Of a stretch of DNA of 64,000 nt, positions 41,254 to 64,000 are shown in pieces. Made by a program: the position numbers and the translations under genes. Under the pieces are notes generated by a model. The model was not told the DNA's origin. It saw only the letters and a program-made list of their open reading frames with translations, and ran no database searches. The stretch covers positions 2,356,001 to 2,420,000 of the forward strand of contig JAADJZ010000002.1 in assembly GCA_011032825.1 (NCBI GenBank), given 5' to 3'. Source of the DNA: Massariosphaeria phaeospora. Lineage: Eukaryota; Ascomycota; Dothideomycetes; Pleosporales. Positions within the stretch are counted from its first letter, which is position 1. Each line of letters opens with the position of its first letter.

Positions 41254-42708
41254 TCAGCCATCCGCCAACAATCGCGCCACGCCGCGAAGCCCAGGCATAA
41301 AGAAGTAAGCGCCACCGCGCACAGTGACGAATTGCGGGAGGCCGCCAATAGCACGGGGCCACGCGCCAGAATCCGTGTAGCTGAAAGCGTCAGTCGGCTG
41401 CGCGCCCGCGAGCGGCAGCCGGTTACCGAGCAGCGGGTCCTGCTCAGCGGCGAGCCCAGCGAACTTGGCGTTGGCAACCCAGGCGCCCTGCACGAACTCG
41501 AACTGGCGCGCGATGTTGGTGTTGAGGCACAGGAAATGCAAGCCGGATTCCTGGCCGGCGCCGGCGCCGGCGCCCGTGCCCTGCATAGCGGCGTGCGGGG
41601 CGACGACCGGGCCGTAGGGGCGGCCGCGACGGGAGAGGCGGTGGAAGCGCGCGGAGGCGACGGCATCGTGCATGGCGGTGCCGCTGAACCCGAGCGTGGA
41701 GATAAGGTTGCGTACGAAGCCGTGGCGCCCCTGCGGGTCGTCGGCGCTGCGCGGATTGACGCGGCGGATATGCGCGCCGATCGGGCAGACGAGGCCGTCG
41801 GCATCGTCAGCGAACAGGAAGGCGTTGCGCGCATCGTCGGTGCCCGTGATGGTGGCGGACTGAAGCCCGAGGAGGGGCGCGCCGTCGAGGCCACGGCCGA
41901 CCATGCGTTCTGCTAGCGCGATGGCACCGTCGTCGTCGCCGGCCTGACGCGCCAGCCATTGCCAGAAGCCAGCAACATCCTGCGCAAGCTGGCGGTAGAC
42001 GAGGTAGGAGCCGTTGCGGCCCAGCTCGTCGGCGGCAGGGTAATCGTTGACGAAGCCGTACTCGTTGGGATAGCCGAGCAGCAACTCGCCCATGGCCAGT
42101 AGATTGCGATAGTCGCGGTCGCGGGCGCCGCCGGGGGTGAGGGTGCCACTCCAATCGTACTCGGGCTGCGAGACGCCGTCGGCAAAGCCAAAAGGTTCGC
42201 GGCCGAGGGGGGTGGTGGTGGTGGTCGGGGTATTGCCGCCGATGACCGCGCAGCCGGCGGCCACGGCAGCGCTGCATGTGTCCTTTGCCAGGCTGTTGAT
42301 GGAGGTGTTTGCGGCCAGCAGGACCAGCAGGATATGCGGCTCTTGTTCGCCGACGCCCCAGTGCCAGTGAGCGGGGGAATTAGGGCCTTCGTCTCCCAGC
42401 TGGTGCGAGCGGCGCTCGTCGCCGGCCATGCCGTCGATGAATTGCGGGTCGAAGCCGGCCCCGGGGGTGACTTCGGTGCCCAGCGCGCGCAGGCCGGCGG
42501 CGGTGAAGGCCATCTGGCAGACTTGCGACAGACGCTGCGTGCGGGCTTGCGCCACCGAGGCGATGTCGACGGAGCGCAGCCAGGGTTTGGCTAGGGCGCG
42601 GTCTTGGATGCGCAGGAGCAGGTAGCAGGCGCCGGTGAGCGACCCGAAGCCGCGACCCGCTATCGCCTGAATATCGGCGGCTTCGTCGTTGGCGGCCATG
42701 CTCATCAT
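41254..42708 (-). CDS. DyP-type heme peroxidase, bacterial type
   Basis: Dye-decolourising peroxidase using hydrogen peroxide, 484 residues, intronless and very GC-rich. The hallmark GxxDG motif is FGFADG (catalytic Asp near residue 177), the proximal heme ligand is in CPIGAHIRRVNPR (His near 313, with the following arginines), and the family C-terminus is TVRGGAYFFMPG. Distal-side segments PEYDWSGTLTPGGARDRDY and YPNEYG also fit. No signal peptide. Its start overlaps the stop of the upstream gene by ATGA (42705-42708), an arrangement of bacterial operons and almost unknown for fungal genes. Composition differs sharply from the neighbouring fungal genes. Closest relatives are expected in bacteria; that is inference. 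A second Met lies one codon downstream. Confidence 0.93.
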   Translation of the reverse strand: MMSMAANDEAADIQAIAGRGFGSLTGACYLLLRIQDRALAKPWLRSVDIASVAQARTQRLSQVCQMAFTAAGLRALGTEVTPGAGFDPQFIDGMAGDERRSHQLGDEGPNSPAHWHWGVGEQEPHILLVLLAANTSINSLAKDTCSAAVAAGCAVIGGNTPTTTTTPLGREPFGFADGVSQPEYDWSGTLTPGGARDRDYRNLLAMGELLLGYPNEYGFVNDYPAADELGRNGSYLVYRQLAQDVAGFWQWLARQAGDDDGAIALAERMVGRGLDGAPLLGLQSATITGTDDARNAFLFADDADGLVCPIGAHIRRVNPRSADDPQGRHGFVRNLISTLGFSGTAMHDAVASARFHRLSRRGRPYGPVVAPHAAMQGTGAGAGAGQESGLHFLCLNTNIARQFEFVQGAWVANAKFAGLAAEQDPLLGNRLPLAGAQPTDAFSYTDSGAWPRAIGGLPQFVTVRGGAYFFMPGLRGVARLLADG

Positions 42709-43988
42709 ATCTCAGCGATCCAGGCTCGGAGCTCGGAGCCGGTCAGGTTCGCGGTGAGCCCCTGGCGGATGCGGGTGTTGCGGGCCAAATCGTACGTAGT
42801 CAGGCCGGGCATGGCCTTGTACCACACCTGGGTTGGGATCTGGTGGTGGAACAGGTAGCGCTTGAAGTGCTGCTCGTGGCGGGCGCCGTCGAAGACCAGC
42901 CAGTTGGTTTGCGGGTAGCCGAGGCCGTTGGAGAAGGAGAGGTTGAGGCCAAAGGCCACCTTGTTGATGAAGTCGTCGTTGTAGGCCTCGCGGCTCCCGT
43001 CGTAGTTGCTGGCGAAGAACACCCGCCGCTTGTCGTCGAGGAAGGTCCAGCTGGCGAAGTGGATGGTGTTGACGCGGCCCAGTCGACCGGCAGTGTAGAG
43101 GTGGCGGCCGCTCCAGTCGATGAGCCAGAGGATGGCGACGCTCAGCCAGCGGCGGAAGCGGCCTGGTTTGAGCGAGCCGATAGTGCTGTACTGGTTGGTC
43201 ACGTCGCGGTCCTCGGCCGCACTCAGCAGCTTGTTGCGCGCAATCGAGGGGACGGGGGCGAGCACCGGATCGTGGGTTTCGCGCCAGCGCAGCAGCAGGA
43301 CGAGGGCCGGCAGCGCGGGGACGAGCAGCGGCGCCAGGAGCGCGACGTACAGCGGCAGCCGCAGGAAGTCGCCCATGTGCGCCACCCGCTCGGCGACGGT
43401 GCGGGCGGGCGGCGGGGTCAGCGCGACGGTGCGGGCGGCGGCGAGCAAGACGGCGCGCAGCTGCTCGGGCGCGGCGGTAGGGTGGGCGAGACGGGCCTGT
43501 CGCAGGGCGTCGTGCAGCGCGGCCTCTTCGCGGACCTGGGCCATGGTGCGGCCGGGCCAGTTGGCGTAGGTGGCCGACGAGCGGATGCGGTGGGCGCGCA
43601 GCCAGGCGAGCAGGTCGGCGCGGGCGTGGGCGTCGAAGTCGCTGCAGTGGCCGAAGATGAGCAGCAGACCGGGGGTGGCGAGCTGGACGAGGTCGCGCAG
43701 CAGCCCGTCGGCGGTGCCGTCGCAGTCGGCGACGAAGGCCAGACGCAGCGGCTCCGCGGCGGACAGCTGGCGGGCGAGCTGGAGCTGCTGGCGGTCGGGC
43801 AGCGAGGGGTCGTCGAGCACCACGAAGCGGGCGACGTGGAGGCTGGCGATGCGGCCAAACGGCAGCAGCGCGTTGGCGGGGTCGGCGGTGCCCGGGGCCG
43901 CGTTCATCGAGGCAAGCACGCCCGCCAGCGCCTCCACTGCGCCCGAGCGCACCGGCGCGGCGACGAAGACGTGGGACTGGCCGGCCAT
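42705..43988 (-). CDS. Membrane-anchored protein with possible DyP/chlorite-dismutase-like C-terminus
   Basis: 427 residues, intronless, GC-rich, directly upstream of and overlapping the DyP gene. The N-terminal third is Ala/Leu-rich with LHVARFVVLDDPSL and ATPGLLLIFGHCSDFD. A membrane segment follows (LPLYVALLAPLLVPALPALV). The C-terminal half holds RVNTIHFASWTFLDDKRRVF, FFASNYDGSREAYNDDFINK and NGLGYPQTNWLVFDGARHE, a pattern seen in uncharacterised bacterial proteins encoded near heme peroxidases; the IHFA..FLDD..R.FF.SNYDGS core looks like a ferredoxin-like fold of the DyP/chlorite-dismutase type. Role unknown; it may pass substrate or peroxide to the DyP enzyme at a membrane. The fold and role are inference; the overlap with DyP is seen directly. 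Confidence 0.75.
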   Translation of the reverse strand: MAGQSHVFVAAPVRSGAVEALAGVLASMNAAPGTADPANALLPFGRIASLHVARFVVLDDPSLPDRQQLQLARQLSAAEPLRLAFVADCDGTADGLLRDLVQLATPGLLLIFGHCSDFDAHARADLLAWLRAHRIRSSATYANWPGRTMAQVREEAALHDALRQARLAHPTAAPEQLRAVLLAAARTVALTPPPARTVAERVAHMGDFLRLPLYVALLAPLLVPALPALVLLLRWRETHDPVLAPVPSIARNKLLSAAEDRDVTNQYSTIGSLKPGRFRRWLSVAILWLIDWSGRHLYTAGRLGRVNTIHFASWTFLDDKRRVFFASNYDGSREAYNDDFINKVAFGLNLSFSNGLGYPQTNWLVFDGARHEQHFKRYLFHHQIPTQVWYKAMPGLTTYDLARNTRIRQGLTANLTGSELRAWIAEI

Positions 43989-44723
43989 GGCTGGCTGCTT
44001 TGGTTCAGGGAGTTGGGCGGGAGTTGCCGAGAGGGATAGAGCGGTTCGAACCAGCTGCTACTTCTATGGGACCAGGACGACCGCTGAAGCCCCCGCTGCT
44101 TTATGCTTGCCAGCTTAGAAGACGGCATGGCCCAGGTCTTTCGCGGGCATCGCGTGTGCAGCTATCGCATTGGCGGGGCCATTGGGTGGCGGCTTGTTCA
44201 ACGTCCTCGGGCATGTCAGCTGGCTTTTGGCCCTCAACCACTTTCACATTTCAATTCCTGGAAGAAGCCGGCTGCCCAATCAGAGTTGGATGCGGCGCGT
44301 CGAACACGGTCCAGATTGCGTGATAACGGTCCAGCCGCAGCCTAGCTCCTCACTCCGCAAGGACGCATCAGCATTCACAGCAGGACTGATATGGTGCCGT
44401 TGTGGATGCTCTTCAGCTCTGATGCCACCTAGTGTATATGTTAGAACATCCAGCCGAACCAACGAAACCGCCGCATCTAGCGAAACAAATCCAGCCGACG
44501 CAGCCCCGAGTAACTGCACGTGTAGCTTGTTGTTCGTCCGACATCAAGAGTGAGCGAACGCCATGGGCTGAGCTCATGCAGCTGGTGTCGACGAACAGGC
44601 AAAACATCACTGAGCCCGTGTAGCTGGTGCCGACAAACCAGCAAAACACCAACATCAACCCCCTCATCCTCACCACCAGTTGTCCCCTCTCCCTCCTCTT
44701 CAGGAATCAGACAAACCCCCACA
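43989..44723. other. Divergent intergenic region of the peroxidase cluster
   Basis: Separates the minus-strand pair from the plus-strand 143-residue gene. Less GC-rich than the genes on either side and without bacterial promoter motifs I can recognise; it may serve as a two-way fungal promoter. Confidence 0.4.
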
Positions 44724-45155
44724 ATGACCTACACCCCCGAAAACCTCCTCACCATGTCCTCCTCCTCCCTCGCCACGCTCTTCTCCCACGCCCCCGCCGG
44801 CCCCATCCCCAACGGCTCCGCGCAAGGCACCGCCATCGTCGCGCCGGGCACCGCCTTCACTTCCGACATCGCCGCCTTCATCAACATCTTCGCCTGGCAG
44901 GGCAAGATCTTCAACGCCGAGAAGATGGCGCTGGTGAACAACATCACCGTGTTCGGCCTCGATGCCATCCTCGCGCACATCTCGCGCGGGCCGAGCTGGA
45001 TAGACGGCAAGGAGTGCATTGTCCTTGATTACTCGCAGACGTCGGTTGTGGCGCATTGGGTGCGCGATGAGATGCGCTGCATTGGGCCGGGGGTTTATCT
45101 AGGGAGGGTGTTTTGGAAGGAGAGGCATCTTATTTATTTTTCGCTGAGGTTCTGA
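44724..45155 (+). CDS. Bacterial-type small protein, 143 residues
   Basis: Intronless GC-rich gene; ATG 44724 in context ACAATGA (an in-frame upstream extension is Ser/Pro filler). Features: HAPAGPIPNG near residue 20, a TAIVAPGTAF strand, AFINIFAWQGKIFN, NITVFGLDAILAHISRGPSW, ECIVLDYSQTSVVAHWVRDE and PGVYLGRVFWKERHLIYF. This order of segments is what I recall from a family of uncharacterised bacterial proteins, often near lipid-oxidation or peroxidase genes. It lies head to head with the DyP operon and shares its composition, so I infer it came with it. Biochemical role unknown. Confidence 0.65.
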   Translation: MTYTPENLLTMSSSSLATLFSHAPAGPIPNGSAQGTAIVAPGTAFTSDIAAFINIFAWQGKIFNAEKMALVNNITVFGLDAILAHISRGPSWIDGKECIVLDYSQTSVVAHWVRDEMRCIGPGVYLGRVFWKERHLIYFSLRF

Positions 45156-45500
45156 GCCGGGGCGCTGGGCCATGGCCGGTACTACGGGGAGCTGGTGGAG
45201 GGAGAGCGAGATCCTGTTGTGGACTATTGTTCTGTAGGCAAGAACTTGCTCAAGAAGGTTGTCGCGGAAAGCGAGTTCGGGACATGTATATTCAGAAGAG
45301 AATCAACTCTGAACACGCAACGTAATGAATAATTAACGGTATATACGCTTCCAGCCCCCGGGATAGTTCCAACATGTCAATCTCAGGCCAACGCCCCATC
45401 AAGCTTACAAGGCATTTGTCTCTATCCCAGCGTACTGTTCAGATGCCGCTAGCTTCTCCCACAGTGCAAAAATACTCTCACTCTTCGCGATGACTGGTCC

Positions 45501-45525
45501 CAGTTCAGTTCAGTTCAGTTCAGTT
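45501..45525. repeat. (CAGTT)5 microsatellite
   Basis: Five perfect tandem copies of CAGTT. Confidence 0.95.
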
Positions 45526-46094
45526 CGGGAGAGTGTCTAGCCAGGACATCTTATATTTCCTCGTCGTGCACTGCACCCAATGAAACCCTTCTGACCTGTA
45601 AGTAAGTCTCCGCGTCCCACTACAAAGCAATAAACCCGTCACTCTTTAGTCTTCTTACTCGACGCCATGAGGATGAAGATGTGAAATGCAGTATCTATCA
45701 CTGAGGCCAAAGCCTTCTAGGCGCAGCGGAGCCTTGAGATTTTGGAGAAAATCCGGGTAGTTGTTGTTGGTGATGGCGCCAGGGTCGTTGCCATTGTCTA
45801 GCGGTCATGTGACTAATTGTCTCCGGGTGGGAGGGGAATGTCGAAAGTCCTCATCACTCTAATCACTCAACGTCAGTTTTCGAAATATAACTTTCCAATA
45901 CACAAAACCTCGACCCGAACCATGCTCAGCGAGTAGACTGCCAGGGAGGTGACGTACAGATTCATGAACCACCCCGTCATGAATCTGGAACTGAATCTAG
46001 GCTGCGGCTAACAGGTTCAAAGATACCAGTAGATAAAACCCTTAGCTTTTCTCTTCATAAACCGCTCGCTGACTACACGAGGATCCGGCGTCCA

Positions 46095-46124
46095 CAGCTC
46101 AGCTCAGCTCAGCTCAGCTCAGCT
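46095..46124. repeat. (CAGCT)6 microsatellite
   Basis: Six perfect tandem copies of CAGCT; differs by one base per unit from the array 570 bases upstream. Confidence 0.95.
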
Positions 46125-46632
46125 CTTCGTCAGTAGGTCTTTAAGTATGCTGTCGAGGAAAGTTGCACCCAAAGCGCATGCCAGCACAGCCCATGCGCGG
46201 AAGTTCCGCCGAAGTTGAATTTGCCATGCGAGTTCCGCGCGTTCTGGAAACGCTGCTCTAGCAAGGATTCTTCGATTGCATTTCCGTATGCGGCCCCGGT
46301 CAGGTATGTATCATAGAGGCTTCAGGCCTGAAGCTCAACACGGAGAAATGAATGCAAGGTTCAAAGCTCCTACAATCGGAGGTAATCTGTGCCATGGAGC
46401 GTGTTTGTTGACGATCTTGAATAGTGAGATAAAAACGCGTTCGGCGAAAGACGGCCGGAACGAATATGACTCCATTGCCGTAATTGATCAGGATGTGAGA
46501 ATGAAGAACAGTGGATACGAAGTATTGAGTCCAACTCTTGTTACTGTATAAACCGGTTTGTCTCATCAACTTCGAGTAATCTCAGCCTGATCTAGAACCA
46601 CGGTAAAATAACGCTATAAGATAAACAGACAC

Positions 46633-46785
46633 GTGCAGCTAGGCAGCGAGGAGCTGTCCACAGCTAAGCATGCTGGATATGGTGGCTTACCCTTTTTGCA
46701 CCTGGACAACGCCTCGTTCGGCTAAATAACGCCATTTCTGATGTTGTGCAGCTAGGCAGTGAGCTGACCCTCAGCTGGGCATGCT
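46633..46785. repeat. Imperfect direct repeat pair
   Basis: GTGCAGCTAGGCAG followed by an AGCTG...CAGCT...GCATGCT pattern occurs at 46633-46674 and again at 46746-46785; both copies are preceded by AAATAACGC. A decayed tandem duplication of about 115 bases. Confidence 0.65.
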
Positions 46786-47160
46786 CACCTCATGCCGCGA
46801 AAGCAATGAGACATTTCTCAGATGTTCAAGCACAACAAGAACATGACGGTGTATAACAAAAACTCCAGGAGGGTGAAACAGACATTGTAAGAGCCTTCGA
46901 GTTGTTTTTAGTAAAGAGAACATTTGTTGTGTAAAGATATGATTGATCGGTAGAGCTTGCTTTGCCGAAGTAAGCCAGAGTGTCTTTTTTTCTTATTCAG
47001 CGTGAGGTGTGCTGAGTTTGGTGGCTTACTGTGCAGTAAGCTGAGTAGGTCTGAGGAAAAAAGCCTGCAGAGGCCCAAAAACGAGAAAGCTGAAAATCGA
47101 CCGAACATTATGAGGCCTCGGTCGTTATAGTTACTGCGCTCCAAAACACCGACACACACA

Positions 47161-47945
47161 ATGGTGTTCGCTACTCTATTCTCTTTCCTGAAGGGCATCG
47201 TCAGTTTCAGGTCGCGGGAACGAAGTCAAGAGATTTCCAAAACCCAGCAAATGGATCATGAGTATGTTCGAGGGAACATTGACAATCGAGGTCCTTGTCC
47301 TGGCCTGAATGCACTAGCGAACCAGGGATACATGTACGTTGGCCGTCTTCTCCAGGCCTTCATTTTCATGCTGACAGCCATATGTACAGACCCCGAGATG
47401 GGAAGACCATCAATATAGCCCAAGTCGAAACCGCGTTGATGGCCGGCCTTCACATGAGCAGCACCCTAGCATCCACCCTGGCCCGCACTCTCCGCCCCCT
47501 CTGTCGAGCCGACGGCACATTTGACCTGTACGACATGAGAAAGCACAATGTGATAGAGCACGACCGGTCCTTCACTCGCCTCGACTTTCGGCAAGGAGAC
47601 AACTACACGTTCCAGCCCGCCATGTTCCAAGCCCTTCTCGACGATGCCGCGGGCGGACCCATCACGATACGGACCCTGGCCAAGACTTACGCCCGCCGCA
47701 AAAAGGAGTGCAAGCGTTCTGGTGCCCCTCGCCTTTCCCTCAAGCTCTGGGGCGTCAACCTCATTCAAACTGTTTCTTTCTATCACACCGCAGCCATGAA
47801 CCCGCTTACTAAAGAAACAATGACGACCTTCTATGTAGAGGAGCGGTTCCCAGATGCGATACTGCAGAACCCGAAGAAACGTACTCTACTTGGCTTGATA
47901 TGGGATACAGTGGTTCTTTTGACCTACATTGTGTTCAAGACGTGA
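47161..47945 (+). CDS. Heme-thiolate peroxidase (chloroperoxidase family), two exons
   Basis: Peroxidase family 2. Exon 1 (47161-47333) and exon 2 (47390-47945) join in phase 2 over a 56-base intron (GTACGT...TACAG), giving 242 residues. The heme-thiolate motif is RGPCPGLNALANQGYIPRDG (Cys near residue 46 ligates iron) and the acid-base/cation motif is EHDRSFTRLD (Glu near 114). Family reactions are peroxide-dependent halogenation or oxygenation. N-terminal hydrophobic stretch (VFATLFSFLKGIVSF) and C-terminal membrane helix (LLGLIWDTVVLLTYIVF) suggest membrane attachment. Unlike its four GC-rich neighbours it is spliced and has ordinary fungal composition, so it is native, yet it uses the same co-substrate. 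Confidence 0.9.
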
Positions 47946-48202
47946 GGGTGCTTCAGGGATAGTAGTCGCAGATTGCGCAGCAGATATTTTCGTTCGAGTC
48001 CAGAATCAATTCCAGCTATGCCTAAACCAATCCAACTTCACATGGCTCCTTTCAATCCATCTTGACCAAGGTCGCCTGTGAAAAAGACGGCTATTCCGAT
48101 GTGGAGTCTGAGAGTTAATTGCCCATTGTGATTTGCAGTCGCACGTCAATATACCTGACTTCTATATAATAACTCCCTGGATAGGGATACTCAAAATGTT
48201 CC
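47946..48202. other. Intergenic
   Basis: Short gap between converging genes; nothing recognised. Confidence 0.5.
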
Positions 48203-48397
48203 TCAATCAGCCCTACTCGTCTTCAAAGCAAATTTTTCTGTGCTTCCTTTGCCCAAGTGTTCCATGATAGGTAGCATCACGTCCGTGGTCTGCTTCACCC
48301 AATTCCGGATTTCAACCGCGGACTGCTTGTACTGCTCTGGGATCCACACTCGCTGCTGATGGTCGGCGGCGTGTACTCGTTCCATGTAACAACACAT
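48203..48397 (-). CDS. Small ORF two bases after the catalase-like gene
   Basis: 64 residues from ATG 48397, only two bases past the stop of the catalase-like gene. The middle (YKQSAVEIRNWVKQTTDVML) is an amphipathic helix and the composition is less GC-rich than the gene upstream. It could be the last member of the transferred operon, a native exon fragment, or chance. No family recognised. Confidence 0.3.
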   Translation of the reverse strand: MCCYMERVHAADHQQRVWIPEQYKQSAVEIRNWVKQTTDVMLPIMEHLGKGSTEKFALKTSRAD

Positions 48398-48399
48398 GC

Positions 48400-49593
48400 C
48401 TACAGCGGCAACGGCGGGTCGAAGGTTTCGCTGCCGTCCGGCTCAACGTGCGGCGTGTCATTCATGTGCTGGCGCAACAGCGATAGCGCCTGGTAGATCT
48501 TGAGCCGTCCGCGGTTCTGGTTGCCCAGCGGGCGATGCGCCGGCAGGCAATGCCACGGGTTGATGGACAACCGGCTGGCGAAGGCGAGCTGGGCGTCAGT
48601 GTCGAAGCGCTGGCTTGGCAGTTCCAGCGTCGCGACAACCACGGGCGGGCTGTCGGGCGCGTCCCAGCGCACCGATGCATGCTCGACGGGCATGCGTTGC
48701 GCGTCACTCTGCAGTTGCAGCAACATCTCGAAGCGCGCAGGCCGCGCGGTGAGGGTGCGTGCCATGGCATCGCGCAAGTAGTTGTCTGAAGGGCGGCCTG
48801 GCAAACCAGGAATGCGGCTGCGAGTGGCGCCCACGGGCCGGAAGTGGTACTGCATGGCCTGGCCTTCGCCCAGCAGGTAGGGCACGCAGCCCCAGTACTC
48901 GGTCTCAAGCGGGCTCGTCTGCGTGCGCGACCAAAGGGCCTGCATCAGCGCATCGAGGAAATGGCCGCCGGGGCCGACGAAGTAGAACAGCGGCAAGCCA
49001 CGGGCGACGGCAGCTTGCAGCTTCGCGTTGGCGGTCAGGTCAGGCGTGGTGAAGACTGGGGTGCTGATGCCGGTGAAGTCCTGCGTGAAGCGCTCGTCGC
49101 GTAGCAGCTTGGGGCCCGGCACGCCCATGACCTTGACGCCGATGCTCAGCACGCCGACATCCTCGATATCAGGTGGCAGCGCTGGCCCGGGCCCGCTGAA
49201 GCGCACCCAGACTGGGTATCGGTGCGGCTGCTCGAAAAGGCCGTGGCGCAGGTTCTCTGGCAGGCCGTCGTGGATCACCAGCTCGCCGCGCACCACACCG
49301 TGGGTCTTTGTGTTGCCGCCGCGCTGCGCCGTGCCGGCATCATAGTGCGTGCGCAGGTACTGCGACATGTTGGCGATGATGTCGGCGATTAGTTCGTCCT
49401 CGCCCGCCAGGGGCTGCTCCTCCGCGAGCCCGAGTCCGTGGTCTGGGAGACGGGCACGGATTAGCGCCTGCACCAGGCGCGTGAGCGGCTCACGTGCAAT
49501 CGCGTCGACGAACGGACGGAAGAACGGATCGATGCGCCGCTCGATATACATGGCGCCGACGAAGAAATCGTGCAGGGCCCGTAGGGCGGCCAT
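48400..49593 (-). CDS. Catalase-family protein (y4iL/SrpA-like), bacterial type
   Basis: Heme protein of the small catalase-related family, 397 residues from ATG 49593. The open frame continues 45 codons upstream without an ATG, so a short spliced leader exon is possible. Signature segments: GNTKTHGVVRGELVIHDGLP (distal His of the TxHG motif), HRYPVWVRFSGPGP, DIEDVGVLSIGVKVMGVPG, QDFTGISTPVFTTPDL, EYWGCVPYLLGEGQAMQY and NPWHCLPAHRPLGNQNRGRL followed by Tyr (probable proximal ligand). Intronless and very GC-rich like the DyP pair. Members break down peroxides or use them on organic, often lipid, substrates. The chloroperoxidase-family gene lies 455 bases past its 3' end in opposite orientation. 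Confidence 0.88.
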   Translation of the reverse strand: MAALRALHDFFVGAMYIERRIDPFFRPFVDAIAREPLTRLVQALIRARLPDHGLGLAEEQPLAGEDELIADIIANMSQYLRTHYDAGTAQRGGNTKTHGVVRGELVIHDGLPENLRHGLFEQPHRYPVWVRFSGPGPALPPDIEDVGVLSIGVKVMGVPGPKLLRDERFTQDFTGISTPVFTTPDLTANAKLQAAVARGLPLFYFVGPGGHFLDALMQALWSRTQTSPLETEYWGCVPYLLGEGQAMQYHFRPVGATRSRIPGLPGRPSDNYLRDAMARTLTARPARFEMLLQLQSDAQRMPVEHASVRWDAPDSPPVVVATLELPSQRFDTDAQLAFASRLSINPWHCLPAHRPLGNQNRGRLKIYQALSLLRQHMNDTPHVEPDGSETFDPPLPL

Positions 49594-50430: not shown

Positions 50431-51308
50431 GTGGGAGCCTCGCAGTGCCTCGGTGAGCCAGTCGCCAAGCCGCCAAGCCGACCCCGCCGGGCCGATGTTT
50501 CCCCGCTAAAGCCGTTCGAAGGCGGCCACCATTTCCTCAACAGCATGGAGGATCTCCATCTCAACCACGACTTCATGCCGCCAATTGTGGACGAGTTCGT
50601 GAAAGCCAAGAAGGCAGCAATTCCAATCGCCGTTCCCGACACCACCATTGGTTATACTATATCCCACCAAGTTTCCACGCCAACACCCTTCCTTTCACCC
50701 TGGCCCAGGAGCGCGTCATCAACAATTCGTACGTCATTCCTTCAAGCTCCTGTTCTAGCTAACGTTATCCCTCCAGCTTGCTCGTGCATCCGCGAATGTA
50801 CTTCCCGTTTATGACAGGGCAGTGGAAGCGCTCCCAGAACCACACCCATGCTCTACCTCAGGGCGCGCGCGACGGTGCTGTCATTGTCAATTATCTCCGC
50901 TCGTTCTTCAAGGAAGCCAGAGGGGACAAAGTCGGCGAGCCAGGCGTGACCGAGACCTGCCACTTTTCTATCACCTTCGATGGCTGGCTGGTCATGGTTT
51001 GGGTGCACTGGTACGATGCTAAGTCTGGCGCATACAACATGGAATCGATTCTTGACGCTGCCGTCAACAACAAACTGTCCAACATTCCGTACCGGGCTTT
51101 CTTGCGGAACCTGCAGGATCACGCCATGGGCTCACGGCTGGAGACCCTCAAGGACGCCGTGGACCAACTGCGGGAACATACCCTCGCCGAACAGGCACAG
51201 TCGTCGAAGCCAGCGCGGGCAAAGAGAGCCAAAACAAGCACAGATGCAGTCACCGATCTGCTGATCTCACCTCCGTCTAGCACGACACCCCCACCACCAT
51301 CGGGTTGA
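50431..51308 (+). CDS. Fungal nuclease-like protein, splicing partly unresolved
   Basis: The 3' part is clear: the frame ending FHANTLPFTLAQERVINN joins over a 48-base intron (50729-50776, GTACGT...CTCCAG) in phase 2 to LLVHPRMYFPFMTGQWKRSQ, then ARDGAVIVNYLRSFF, TCHFSITFDGWLVMVWVHWY and a basic/Pro-rich tail ending at 51308. The layout (FMTGQWK, then a helix with ARDGA) resembles fungal PD-(D/E)XK-like proteins in which the core reads FLTCEFK; here Glu is replaced by Gln. The 5' frame (MEDLHLNHDFMPPIVDEF from 50545) is one base out of register, needing a frameshift or an intron such as 50595-50671. It may therefore be damaged. Confidence 0.5.
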
Positions 51309-61254: not shown

Positions 61255-63075
61255 TCATGTATTGTCGCTATTACTGTTCAGCTGCAGCGCAGTCACCGGC
61301 GCGGCGGCGGCCGTCAGCTCTTCCACCAGCTTACTCGCGGTAATCCTGCGCTCGGGGATGCCCTCCAGCATCATGGCTACTAACGCAAACGTCTGGTTCG
61401 ACTCATGGTTCGACTCTGGTTCCACCTCGCCCTGCGCTTCCCCTGCCCCATCTGATGTACTTGTCTCCATCTGCCGCACGAGGCCATTAACCTCTGCCAC
61501 CCAGGCTGCCATGTTCCGATCTGCCTGCCTCCCACGCGCACCCCCTGCCCTCACATCCGCAATCACCCAGTGGTGTGCCGGCGCCGGCACCAGGCCAAGC
61601 ACGAACAGCATTGTCACGCCAAACGCCCAGACATCGCCGGCCGCGCCGCGCTCGGGCACCGCGAGGAACTCAGGCGGGATGTAGGACGGCGTGCCGCTCT
61701 TGGGCGCGGGCTCGTGAATGCCCTGGGCCTGACCGAAGTCGCAGAGGACGGCGCGGGTAGGGGCGAGGAGGATGTTCTGCGGCTTAATGTCGGTGTGCAC
61801 GACGTTGTGGCTGTGGATGAAGGCTATCGCATGGCTGATTTCGCGTAGTATCTGCGTCTGGACGGCGGGAGCAAAGGGTGCGGCTCTGTTGAGATCGGGG
61901 CCGACGTATTCGAGCTCGAGACTGAGGTTGCGCGCGTCGTGGTGCAGGAGGCGCGAGATGAAGGGGGAGCGGTTGCGCAGCTGGGTGAGGATGCGCACTT
62001 CGGTTTTCCACTCGCGCGCCATGGCGGCGAGGGACGGGTTGCGGGCGAGCTTGACGGCGGTGATGACGCCGTCGCGGCGGCTCTTGTAGACGAGGGTGCG
62101 GGTGTTGGCGCTGATGTGGTCGTGGATGACGGTGGGGGTGGAGACTTCGACCGTCGGGCTGCGTCGTGCCTGGGCCCGGTCGTCGGCGGGGGAAAGTACC
62201 GAAGCTTCGCGGTCTGGCTGTGGACGCAGTCCAGATTGCGTGATGTCGTCTTCCACGTCTACGGTCAGCGCGGCTGGGTGGGATGGTGCTGCGGTGGGTA
62301 GTAGCCCCGCGCCCTCATAAGTAAGTGCCAAAGGCTCGGGCGAGGGGCTCCGCGATGGCGGTGGGCTGGCAAGCAGAGCATTTGTCTGCTTGAGATGGGC
62401 CGGGAAGCTGAGGTCGTAGACGAATTTGGCGCCCAGATTCACGCGCCAGGCGCCGCGCTCCAGCCTGAAGCTCTGGCCGCGCTGCAACTCGACCCAGTCT
62501 GCAGTGAACGGGCGGGCGAGGGGGGAGAGGGGCGCCAGGCGGAAGACAGCGTGGGCGGAGACGTTGTGCAGCTCCAGGGCATCGTGGTCGGGGTCAGGGT
62601 AGAAGATGGCGTGGACGAAGTTGACGTAGGGCCGGTAGCGATAGAGGGTGTCCCGTCTCGGCTCGCGGTCGTCGTCCTCAGCAAGATGGACGCCGCCGCC
62701 GTCGCCGCCCGACTCGGATGCAGTTTCGACGTCGTCATTGTCGGAACCCGCAGCGCCATCGTCTTCGTAATCCGTATCATTCTCATCGTCGGTCTCGTGT
62801 TCGTCGGAAGTCGCGTCGTCCCCGTCCCCCGCGCCTTCCTCGGTCGCGTCGGCGCGCGAGTTGTCCAGCAGGATGGAGCAGGATACGGCGCTGCCGAGTG
62901 TGAACTTCTCCGTATACACGTCCTGGCGCAGCTCGTAGACCAGCGGGCCCGCGTGGAGGAGCTGGGCGGCGGCGGCGATGGCCAGCGCAGAGACCGGGTG
63001 CAGGAAGGCGCGCACGGTGCTGCTGTCGTCTGGCGGCGGCTCGCTCTGGTCGCGTGACGAGCGAGAGTCCGACAT
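61255..63075 (-). CDS. Protein kinase with FHA-like N-terminus
   Basis: 606 residues, intronless, GC-rich. The N-terminal 230 residues contain an FHA-like set of strands (EKFTLGSAVSCSILLDN; VNFVHAIFY; LELHNVSAHAVFRL; WRVNLGAKFVYDLSF) interrupted by a 60-residue acidic insertion (GDDATSDEHETDDENDTDYE). A Ser/Pro linker leads to the kinase domain from about residue 325: AVKLAR (Lys near 342), EWKTEV (helix C Glu), HTDIKPQN (catalytic Asp near 429, Lys 431, Asn 434), CDFGQA (Asp near 446), GTPSYIPPEFL (activation/APE) and GDVWAFG. The HRD arginine is replaced by Thr, which suggests activity without activation-loop phosphorylation. Ser/Thr specificity fits DIKPQN. Substrate unknown. Confidence 0.85.
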   Translation of the reverse strand: MSDSRSSRDQSEPPPDDSSTVRAFLHPVSALAIAAAAQLLHAGPLVYELRQDVYTEKFTLGSAVSCSILLDNSRADATEEGAGDGDDATSDEHETDDENDTDYEDDGAAGSDNDDVETASESGGDGGGVHLAEDDDREPRRDTLYRYRPYVNFVHAIFYPDPDHDALELHNVSAHAVFRLAPLSPLARPFTADWVELQRGQSFRLERGAWRVNLGAKFVYDLSFPAHLKQTNALLASPPPSRSPSPEPLALTYEGAGLLPTAAPSHPAALTVDVEDDITQSGLRPQPDREASVLSPADDRAQARRSPTVEVSTPTVIHDHISANTRTLVYKSRRDGVITAVKLARNPSLAAMAREWKTEVRILTQLRNRSPFISRLLHHDARNLSLELEYVGPDLNRAAPFAPAVQTQILREISHAIAFIHSHNVVHTDIKPQNILLAPTRAVLCDFGQAQGIHEPAPKSGTPSYIPPEFLAVPERGAAGDVWAFGVTMLFVLGLVPAPAHHWVIADVRAGGARGRQADRNMAAWVAEVNGLVRQMETSTSDGAGEAQGEVEPESNHESNQTFALVAMMLEGIPERRITASKLVEELTAAAAPVTALQLNSNSDNT

Positions 63076-63644
63076 TGTCTATGGAGGCATGGCAGGAGAT
63101 GAGAAAGATCGAGGTGCCAGTAACAGTGTGGCCCTACCCGTAGAAGCGCGGCGTCCGGCGTCGTGGTGTGTTGTGTGAAAGAGGCCCGGAGCCTGCAGAG
63201 AGGCCCACCCCCGCACCTTAACTACGCTCCTCCACCTTTGTAAATTTTTACAGCACATTACCTAGTATACTAGATATAACAAGGCTTTGTAAAGATAAAA
63301 GCAGCTTATCTATCTATTACTAGAACTTCCTATACTGTTAAGAGCATCGCCTAAAGCTCTCTCAAATCGGACCTGAATTCATGGACGGGTGCGCCGCCAC
63401 TGCCCCCGCCGCCCCCGCACGGCTGCACGCCAAGACGCCAAGACGAGATCGCTTTCTCCCGACGTCAGACGTCTCCAAACACCACCAAGTCCACCACCAA
63501 ACCACCAAACCACCACCAAACCATCACCAAACTACCACCATCCATATTAGCGTCGCCATTTCCACCGCCATCGGTCTCCGCCTCACCCTCGCCCTCGCTC
63601 ACACACCCCATCTCGCCGTCACACTCACGCTGCAACCCCTAACC
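63076..63644. other. Divergent intergenic region
   Basis: 63230-63360 is an AT-rich island (worn repeat or promoter). 63480-63545 is a CCA/ACC-rich simple tract in the leader of the next gene. Confidence 0.5.
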
Positions 63645-64000
63645 ATGGCAGCCGCCCATCTCCCGCCGAGCCCCCCCGCCTCCGAAGCGCGCTCCGTGTC
63701 GCCGGCGGCTGTGCTCGTCAACCTCAAGGAGCCCGGTGGCACGCAGTCGGCCGTCAGCAAGTGCGCTGGCTACCCCGTGTCCGACGCGCTCGTCGACAGG
63801 CTCCATCGGCGGCACAACCTGCGCGCCGTCCCGCTCCTGTCCGAAACCGACTTCGTCCGCCTCGTCGCGGCTGTCGTCGAGGACACTCCGCCGGCCGCCG
63901 TTGACGCCGAGGTCGCCCGCCGTGTGCAGCAGCAAGTCGACTGCGCGACCCAGCGAGCCAAACACGCAAAGATTTCGTTTTTCATCGACCCAGCACCACA
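63645..64000 (+). CDS. Partial CDS running off the window edge
   Basis: ATG 63645 in context AACCATGGC, after a CT/CCA-rich leader. The frame stays open to the last base: MAAAHLPPSPPASEARSVSP, then VLVNLKEPGG, YPVSDALVDRLHRRHNLRAV, LVAAVVEDTPPAAVDAEVAR and AKHAKISFFIDPAP. 118 residues are visible, no domain recognised. The 3' part lies outside. Confidence 0.55.
   Translation, partial: MAAAHLPPSPPASEARSVSPAAVLVNLKEPGGTQSAVSKCAGYPVSDALVDRLHRRHNLRAVPLLSETDFVRLVAAVVEDTPPAAVDAEVARRVQQQVDCATQRAKHAKISFFIDPAP

Follow-up and report, generated by a model that had tools for sequence, protein, structure and literature searches.

We identified four intronless genes of bacterial affinity, encoding a DyP-type peroxidase (DyP), a 427-residue protein (M427), a 143-residue protein (P143) and a catalase-family protein (CatL), within 8.3 kb of a fungal chromosome. 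They are located in the stretch of DNA analyzed here (the window; 64,000 nucleotides, C12:2356001-2420000 of a 42.08-Mb assembly in 51 contigs). Contig C12 (2,441,825 bases) terminates in TTAGGG repeats, and the four genes lie 36-45 kb from that end. Since their families adjoin one another in bacteria, the grouping of the four goes beyond chance. The fungus has probably gained the members of one bacterial module over at least two events and kept them together near the telomere, with the workings proposed below. The bacterial origin of the genes is almost certain and the involvement of two bacterial donors is likely; the four-gene fungal set looks chimeric. The number of transfers, the expression, the substrate and the reaction are those that we infer.

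Organization of the locus

For each of DyP, M427, P143 and CatL there is a single match in the genome (E ≤ 0.001). The locus comprises the following features:

41254..42708, minus strand: DyP-type heme peroxidase (by homology), 484 residues, intronless; follows M427 as the second cistron of the pair
42705..42708, minus strand: ATGA shared by the stop codon of M427 and the start codon of DyP, letters GAGATATGA
42705..43988, minus strand: M427, 427 residues, intronless; first cistron of the M427-DyP pair
43989..44723, no strand: 735 bp separating the divergent genes M427 and P143, given by coordinates; presumed two-way promoter
44724..45155, plus strand: P143, predicted lipocalin/calycin-like protein, 143 residues, intronless
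47161..47945, plus strand: fungal Peroxidase_2 gene (chloroperoxidase/unspecific peroxygenase-like), 242 residues, one 56-nt intron (47334-47389)
48400..49593, minus strand: CatL, catalase-family protein, 397 residues from ATG, intronless; an alternative in-frame TTG start extends the reading frame to 49728

The sequence-only reading of this DNA had described a bacterial operon of four intronless, GC-rich genes embedded among fungal ones. The four genes were confirmed, with GC contents of 61-71% (DyP 68.9%, M427 71.0%, P143 60.6%, CatL 66.8%) and GC at third codon positions (GC3) of 0.83-0.94 (DyP 0.83, M427 0.94, P143 0.85, CatL 0.84). The remaining open reading frames (ORFs) of the window (non-overlapping, stop-to-stop, at least 150 codons) have a GC3 of 0.42-0.68, with two exceptions; because these reach 0.80 and 0.74, GC alone was rejected as proof of foreign origin. 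The bacterial operon geometry claimed for two genes holds for M427 and DyP, which share ATGA at 42705-42708. As for the operon itself, the same four families are clustered in bacteria, but no intact operon is present here: only the M427-DyP pair has operon geometry, because P143 runs in the other direction and is separated from CatL by a fungal gene with an intron. This Peroxidase_2 gene (PF01328, E 1.6e-27 on the second-exon ORF; frame preserved across the intron in a splice check) is fungal and stands outside the bacterial set.

The four families form a cluster in bacteria

A synteny search for the four families in bacteria, proposed along with the sequence-only reading, revealed a conserved cluster. 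Scanning with M427 yielded 53 bacterial loci (L003-L055), to which two (L074 and L075) were added from the Leptothrix family. Among the 53 loci, DyP was present in 49, P143 and CatL in 46 each, and all four genes in 41 (one of these, L048, on a short contig, has only a distant type of CatL). Among the 39 loci that span 17 kb or more and include 5 kb to either side, DyP was found in all 39, P143 in 36, CatL in 36 and the complete set in 34. The fetched loci represent Pseudomonadota, Acidobacteriota, Verrucomicrobiota and other phyla.

The order P143, M427, DyP, followed by CatL on the opposite strand, characterizes L003-L007 and L009; the remaining loci vary, with CatL lying either upstream or, in the same direction, downstream. 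The M427 stop codon lies within ATGA or GTGA in 30 of the 49 loci having both M427 and DyP, and a 4-base overlap, under the chosen start codons, occurs in 22 of the 49. The GAGATATGA junction is identical in the window and in L004-L007 (Novosphingobium/Sphingobium), partly because the proteins share a Glu-Ile C-terminus. The window thus has in common with the bacterial P143-M427-DyP-CatL cluster the four families, the M427-to-DyP order and the ATGA overlap seen in many loci, and differs from it in the divergent P143, the fungal gene that sets CatL apart and the mixed donor affinities.

Six loci (L022, L024, L025, L032, L033 and L052) carry, beside the usual CatL, an additional gene distantly similar to it (28-34% to the window CatL) upstream of P143. 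Three metagenome-derived members of the DyP sister group (P0133, P0136 and P0141) consist of DyP fused to a short CatL-like domain (approx. 31-33% to the window CatL), a fusion that constitutes a natural link between both enzymes. The bacterial synteny and these three fusions support the shared role that we infer for the four genes.

Carriage on plasmids was rejected, as none of the 44 plasmid records that matched M427 contained 80% of it. In several of these matches (H5-H8, H10 and H11, from Sulfitobacter, and H1), the C-terminal half of M427 falls under features named 'cytochrome P450', perhaps as a result of misannotation or fusion. No description of the cluster, in bacteria or in fungi, was found in the open-access literature among the matches listed, in agreement with the earlier supposition that the unit had not been described in fungi.

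Donor affinities of the individual genes

Protein searches and trees bore out the resemblance of DyP, M427 and CatL to bacterial families, and the bacterial origin claimed earlier is supported and can be refined to at least two apparent source lineages. In the M427 tree (54 of the 120 listed proteins and 17 of the 53 loci), the window and Melanomma fall in a 12-row clade nested in a starred 59-row clade whose named bacteria are Sphingomonadales. The 12-row clade of the window DyP (tree of 45 of the 120 listed proteins, cut at 500 residues, and 17 loci) lies within a starred 51-row clade of Sphingomonadales and one Neorhizobium row, while the window CatL (90 of the 120 listed proteins and 14 loci) groups with Polyplosphaeria in a 7-row clade, nested in a 70-row clade with a Burkholderiaceae metagenome-assembled genome (MAG). 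These three trees contradict a placement inside vertically inherited fungal clades, which would have spoken against the sequence-only reading; P143 is unplaced in this respect.

The nearest sphingomonad loci (L003-L007) show 61-66% identity in M427, 55-60% in DyP and 47-51% in CatL (54-66%, 51-60% and 47-59%, respectively, for all nine sphingomonad loci together), and the top named sphingomonad proteins reach 69% (M427) and 62% (DyP). The loci L074 and L075, in which the full cluster is present, show 82% identity in CatL (both protein and DNA), 44-48% in M427, 43-47% in DyP and 55-60% in P143; the CatL of a Burkholderiaceae MAG is 81% identical. Leptothrix belongs to the Burkholderiales. Among 399 sampled genomes of its order, the only one to pass E 1e-140 was Leptothrix itself, and 14 of 399 from its family passed 1e-100, two of them (L074 and L075) at the 82% CatL identity given above. 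More genomes of this family could narrow the donor lineage. Constraining the fungal CatL with sphingomonad CatL was rejected (p value of the approximately unbiased test, p-AU, 5e-72), as was constraining the fungal DyP with Burkholderiales-type rows (p-AU 0.012; tree of 25 rows).

The bacterial origin of P143 is supported by comparison with the bacterial loci, but its place in the tree is unsettled. The first P143 tree contained the 46 P143-bearing loci, and later ones 23 and 24 of these. Grouping with sphingomonads gave p-AU 0.052 in a quick tree and 0.017 in a careful one (L010 and two Burkholderiales rows in, the remnant of the metagenome protein P0007, described below, out). The P0007 remnant itself was not rejected with sphingomonads (p-AU 0.097). 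P143 gave 0.388 when grouped with ten beta-, gamma- and deltaproteobacterial and acidobacterial rows, and 0.098 when only the two Burkholderiales rows were used. The facing orientation of P143 and CatL in L074 and L075 is preserved in the window, where the fungal gene occupies the position of the bacterial M427-DyP; this retained arrangement suggests that P143 and CatL arrived jointly, and M427-DyP separately.

Several observations weigh against acquisition from two donors or against the workings that we propose: (i) M427 constrained with Burkholderiales-type rows (tree of 26 rows) gave p-AU 0.074, which is above 0.05, at a log-likelihood loss of 269, (ii) P143 forms a long branch (1.1-1.5), (iii) no host is named for the nearest relatives from metagenomes, (iv) a search of the P143-CatL gap for remnants of Burkholderiales-type M427 or DyP gave only chance-like matches of 6-38 residues, (v) several relatives depart from the tested DyP motif patterns, some of them from GXXDG, (vi) CatL shows a weak connection to allene oxide synthase, confined to a single 60-residue stretch, and (vii) one bacterium with a hybrid cluster could have supplied all four genes.

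A single transfer of this last kind, from an unsampled bacterium with a chimeric cluster, followed by inversion and insertion of the fungal gene in the fungus, is unlikely. It is consistent with the location of the four genes within 8.3 kb, with the unnamed hosts of the top metagenome proteins and with the differing place and orientation of CatL among bacteria, which indicate that bacterial reshuffling occurs. However, CatL of at least 80% identity together with M427 or DyP of at least 50% (whole protein) was found in none of the 55 bacterial loci. In a comparison of contigs bearing 120 CatL rows with those of 240 M427 and DyP rows, the only size-matched ones (judged by eye, on the longest contig per cluster) were of 2031 and 1759 bases, too short for both genes.

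Stop-start overlap and integrity of the genes

In P0007, which belongs to the M427 clade of the window, a broken P143 stretch can be read in frame just upstream of M427 (46 residues with 70% identity to P143 of the Pontixanthobacter locus L009; 34 residues with 53% to that of the window), and weaker P143 traces are present in P0005 and P0008. In that M427 clade, then, the cistron that once came first has apparently decayed, so that M427 now takes its place. The window P143 is intact, on the strand opposite M427-DyP; a search for a P143 remnant upstream of M427 (43989..44723) showed, among the matches listed, chance-like matches only.

The overlapping stop and start codons (ATGA at 42705-42708) are arranged as in the stop-restart of victorivirus type. 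Victoriviruses, which infect filamentous fungi (PMC3597494), are described as reinitiating translation where stop and start codons overlap (PMC5972666); in yeast, downstream cistrons can be activated by reinitiation (PMC11952965). The likeness lies in the M427-DyP overlap, and reinitiation on DyP would follow by analogy.

It is improbable that the four genes are decaying, functionless transferred DNA, with DyP untranslated as a second cistron. The long branch of P143, the mere P143 remnant upstream of M427 in P0007 and the deviation of some relatives from the DyP pattern GXXDG would fit such decay, but all four window ORFs are full length, with motifs conserved where tested (DyP, CatL, P143 and M427). 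Moreover, the members of both 12-row clades (M427 and DyP) are near full length at approx. 9-23% protein divergence, apart from the partial Melanomma model.

Fungal setting

The host genome contains 100 exon-level matches to Fungal_trans, versus none in 14 control genomes, and three of ten scanned flank ORFs have a Pfam match (FAD_binding_3, ankyrin and protein kinase). Named fungal relatives were found for M427 in Melanomma pulvis-pyrius (77% over 66% of the query, partial model) and for CatL in Polyplosphaeria fusca (85%), both members of the Pleosporales, with one member family matched in each. Carriage by a Starship was considered and found no support (19 DUF3435 matches in the genome, none on contig C12).

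The high GC, the lack of introns and the overlap geometry could also point to bacterial DNA joined to a fungal contig by misassembly or contamination. This is very improbable, because a spliced fungal gene sits between the bacterial genes and the 2.44-Mb contig ends in telomere repeats; in addition, Melanomma and Polyplosphaeria hold single-member relatives, and the mixture was seen in none of the 55 bacterial loci. Vertical inheritance with an ancient bacterial likeness is hardly credible, for although DyPs and catalase-like genes are present in some fungi, M427 and DyP nest in the starred clades with Sphingomonadales (plus the Neorhizobium row for DyP), the CatL clade includes Burkholderiaceae MAGs, CatL DNA is 82% identical to that of L074/L075, and, among the best 120 matches each (most rows nameless), M427 and CatL have a single fungal name apiece and DyP has none.

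Predicted properties of the proteins

Homology of DyP extends over the full protein (7176 homologues among 7998 scored), with matches to PDB 8re3 (E 2.9e-37) and 4au9 (residues 31-478 aligned, E 4.4e-18). The TIGR01413 match (E 1.8e-20) scored 73.5, below the curated cut-off of 100.5, and the Pfam DyP domains were also below threshold; because neither the NCBIfam nor the Pfam cut-off was reached, we assign the protein to a divergent subgroup. GFADG (174-178), H313, the RRG motif and R354/R357/R360/R361/R363 are conserved in a 51-row alignment (GFADG, H313 and these five Arg residues in at least 95% of its rows), and we take these to supply the catalytic Asp of GXXDG, the proximal His and the distal Arg. 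By homology and conserved motifs this is a DyP-type peroxidase, for which heme binding and peroxidase activity are predicted. It resembles known DyP peroxidases (TIGR01413; PDB 8re2/8re3, 7anv and 4au9) in the GXXDG, HIRR and RRG motifs and in the near full-length homology, and differs from them in remaining under both cut-offs.

CatL matched no Pfam family at E 10, and many tblastn matches in PLSDB fall on genes named 'catalase family protein'. R363 and Y367 (RxxxY) are kept in 95% or more of the 47 rows aligned, and presumably represent the proximal heme ligand motif of the catalase family. In the RGGNTKTHG segment, a conserved N94 stands where catalases have the distal His, a correspondence judged by eye; in this respect CatL departs from true monofunctional catalases. 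In a profile search, positions 267-326 matched the allene oxide synthase of a coral (1u5u; E 8e-4). CatL shares this match and RxxxY with the catalase-related allene oxide synthase-lipoxygenase (PDB 1u5u/3dy5), but it lacks the lipoxygenase domain, and the distal His position appears to be Asn.

For M427 and P143, profile searches found no PDB sequence relative below E 0.1. Structure modelling suggests that M427 consists of tandem ABM/SchA-like dimeric alpha+beta barrels, its two halves separated by a hydrophobic helix (198-239), and that P143 is a beta barrel of lipocalin/calycin-like topology. M427 differs from the ABM/SchA-like WhiE-ORFI (9lmn) and Abx(+)O (9ltx) in this hydrophobic insertion, at 10-12% identity; identity to Tcur_1030 (4mve), whose entry title names no function, is 14%. 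A match of P143 to an adenovirus-named family (E 0.086, in a scan at E 10) was dismissed as chance.

Proposed history and comparison with known systems

The recipient in at least two acquisition events would have been a filamentous member of the Ascomycota, probably related to Pleosporales. A sphingomonad-like donor may have supplied the M427-DyP pair, including its stop-start overlap, and a Burkholderiales-like donor CatL and possibly P143, the bacterial orientation of P143 and CatL, facing each other, being retained around the fungal gene. P143 might bind a hydrophobic substrate, which M427, in or on the membrane, would present or convert through its ABM-like barrels; DyP would oxidize this substrate with peroxide, and CatL could act on the resulting or an accompanying organic hydroperoxide of fatty-acid type. 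M427 would be read as the first cistron, and DyP through coupled termination-reinitiation at AUGA, as in victoriviruses. We propose only tentatively that this combination of two heme-type enzymes with a barrel of ligand-binding type and a membrane-linked barrel protein serves to oxidize hydrophobic peroxides or aromatics, or to dispose of them, at the membrane. The full version of this history, in which the fungus drew on two bacterial lineages to rebuild, at a single subtelomeric site, one bacterial oxidative module of four parts, with an AUGA-coupled second cistron, is possible but somewhat doubtful.

Horizontal transfer of siderophore and thiamine-salvage operons, with stepwise assembly of pathways, has been described for Wickerhamiella/Starmerella yeasts (PMC13376923, which cites Kominek et al. 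2019). The likeness consists in bacterial operon genes in a fungal chromosome; here the recipient is probably a filamentous ascomycete and not a yeast, the donors of the one module are apparently chimeric, the stop-start overlap is kept, and the role of the module is a proposed one. The window shows the features expected of such transfer (bacterial neighbours, nesting in bacterial trees and a fungal chromosome), with P143 unsettled in the tree.

The locus represents a natural test of how fungi handle bacterial operons, as a bacterial stop-start overlap has been retained. If correct, independent gain of matching partners from two lineages would argue that selection kept the whole module and not single enzymes; the locus would also be a natural example of a bicistronic cellular mRNA in a fungus, and would show a widespread, previously undescribed bacterial lipocalin/ABM-barrel/DyP/catalase-related system in a eukaryote. 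For bacteria, the outcome is a cluster extending across several phyla for which no published description was found among the open-access matches listed, together with fold-based guesses for its two nameless proteins.

Other features of the window

A DUF7924 ORF (PF25545, E 2.3e-12) is located at 50778-51308, approx. 1.2 kb past the CatL start. The two unusually GC-rich ORFs mentioned above are neighbours: a protein-kinase ORF at 61258-63078 (GC3 0.80) and an ORF at 63342-63998 (GC3 0.74).

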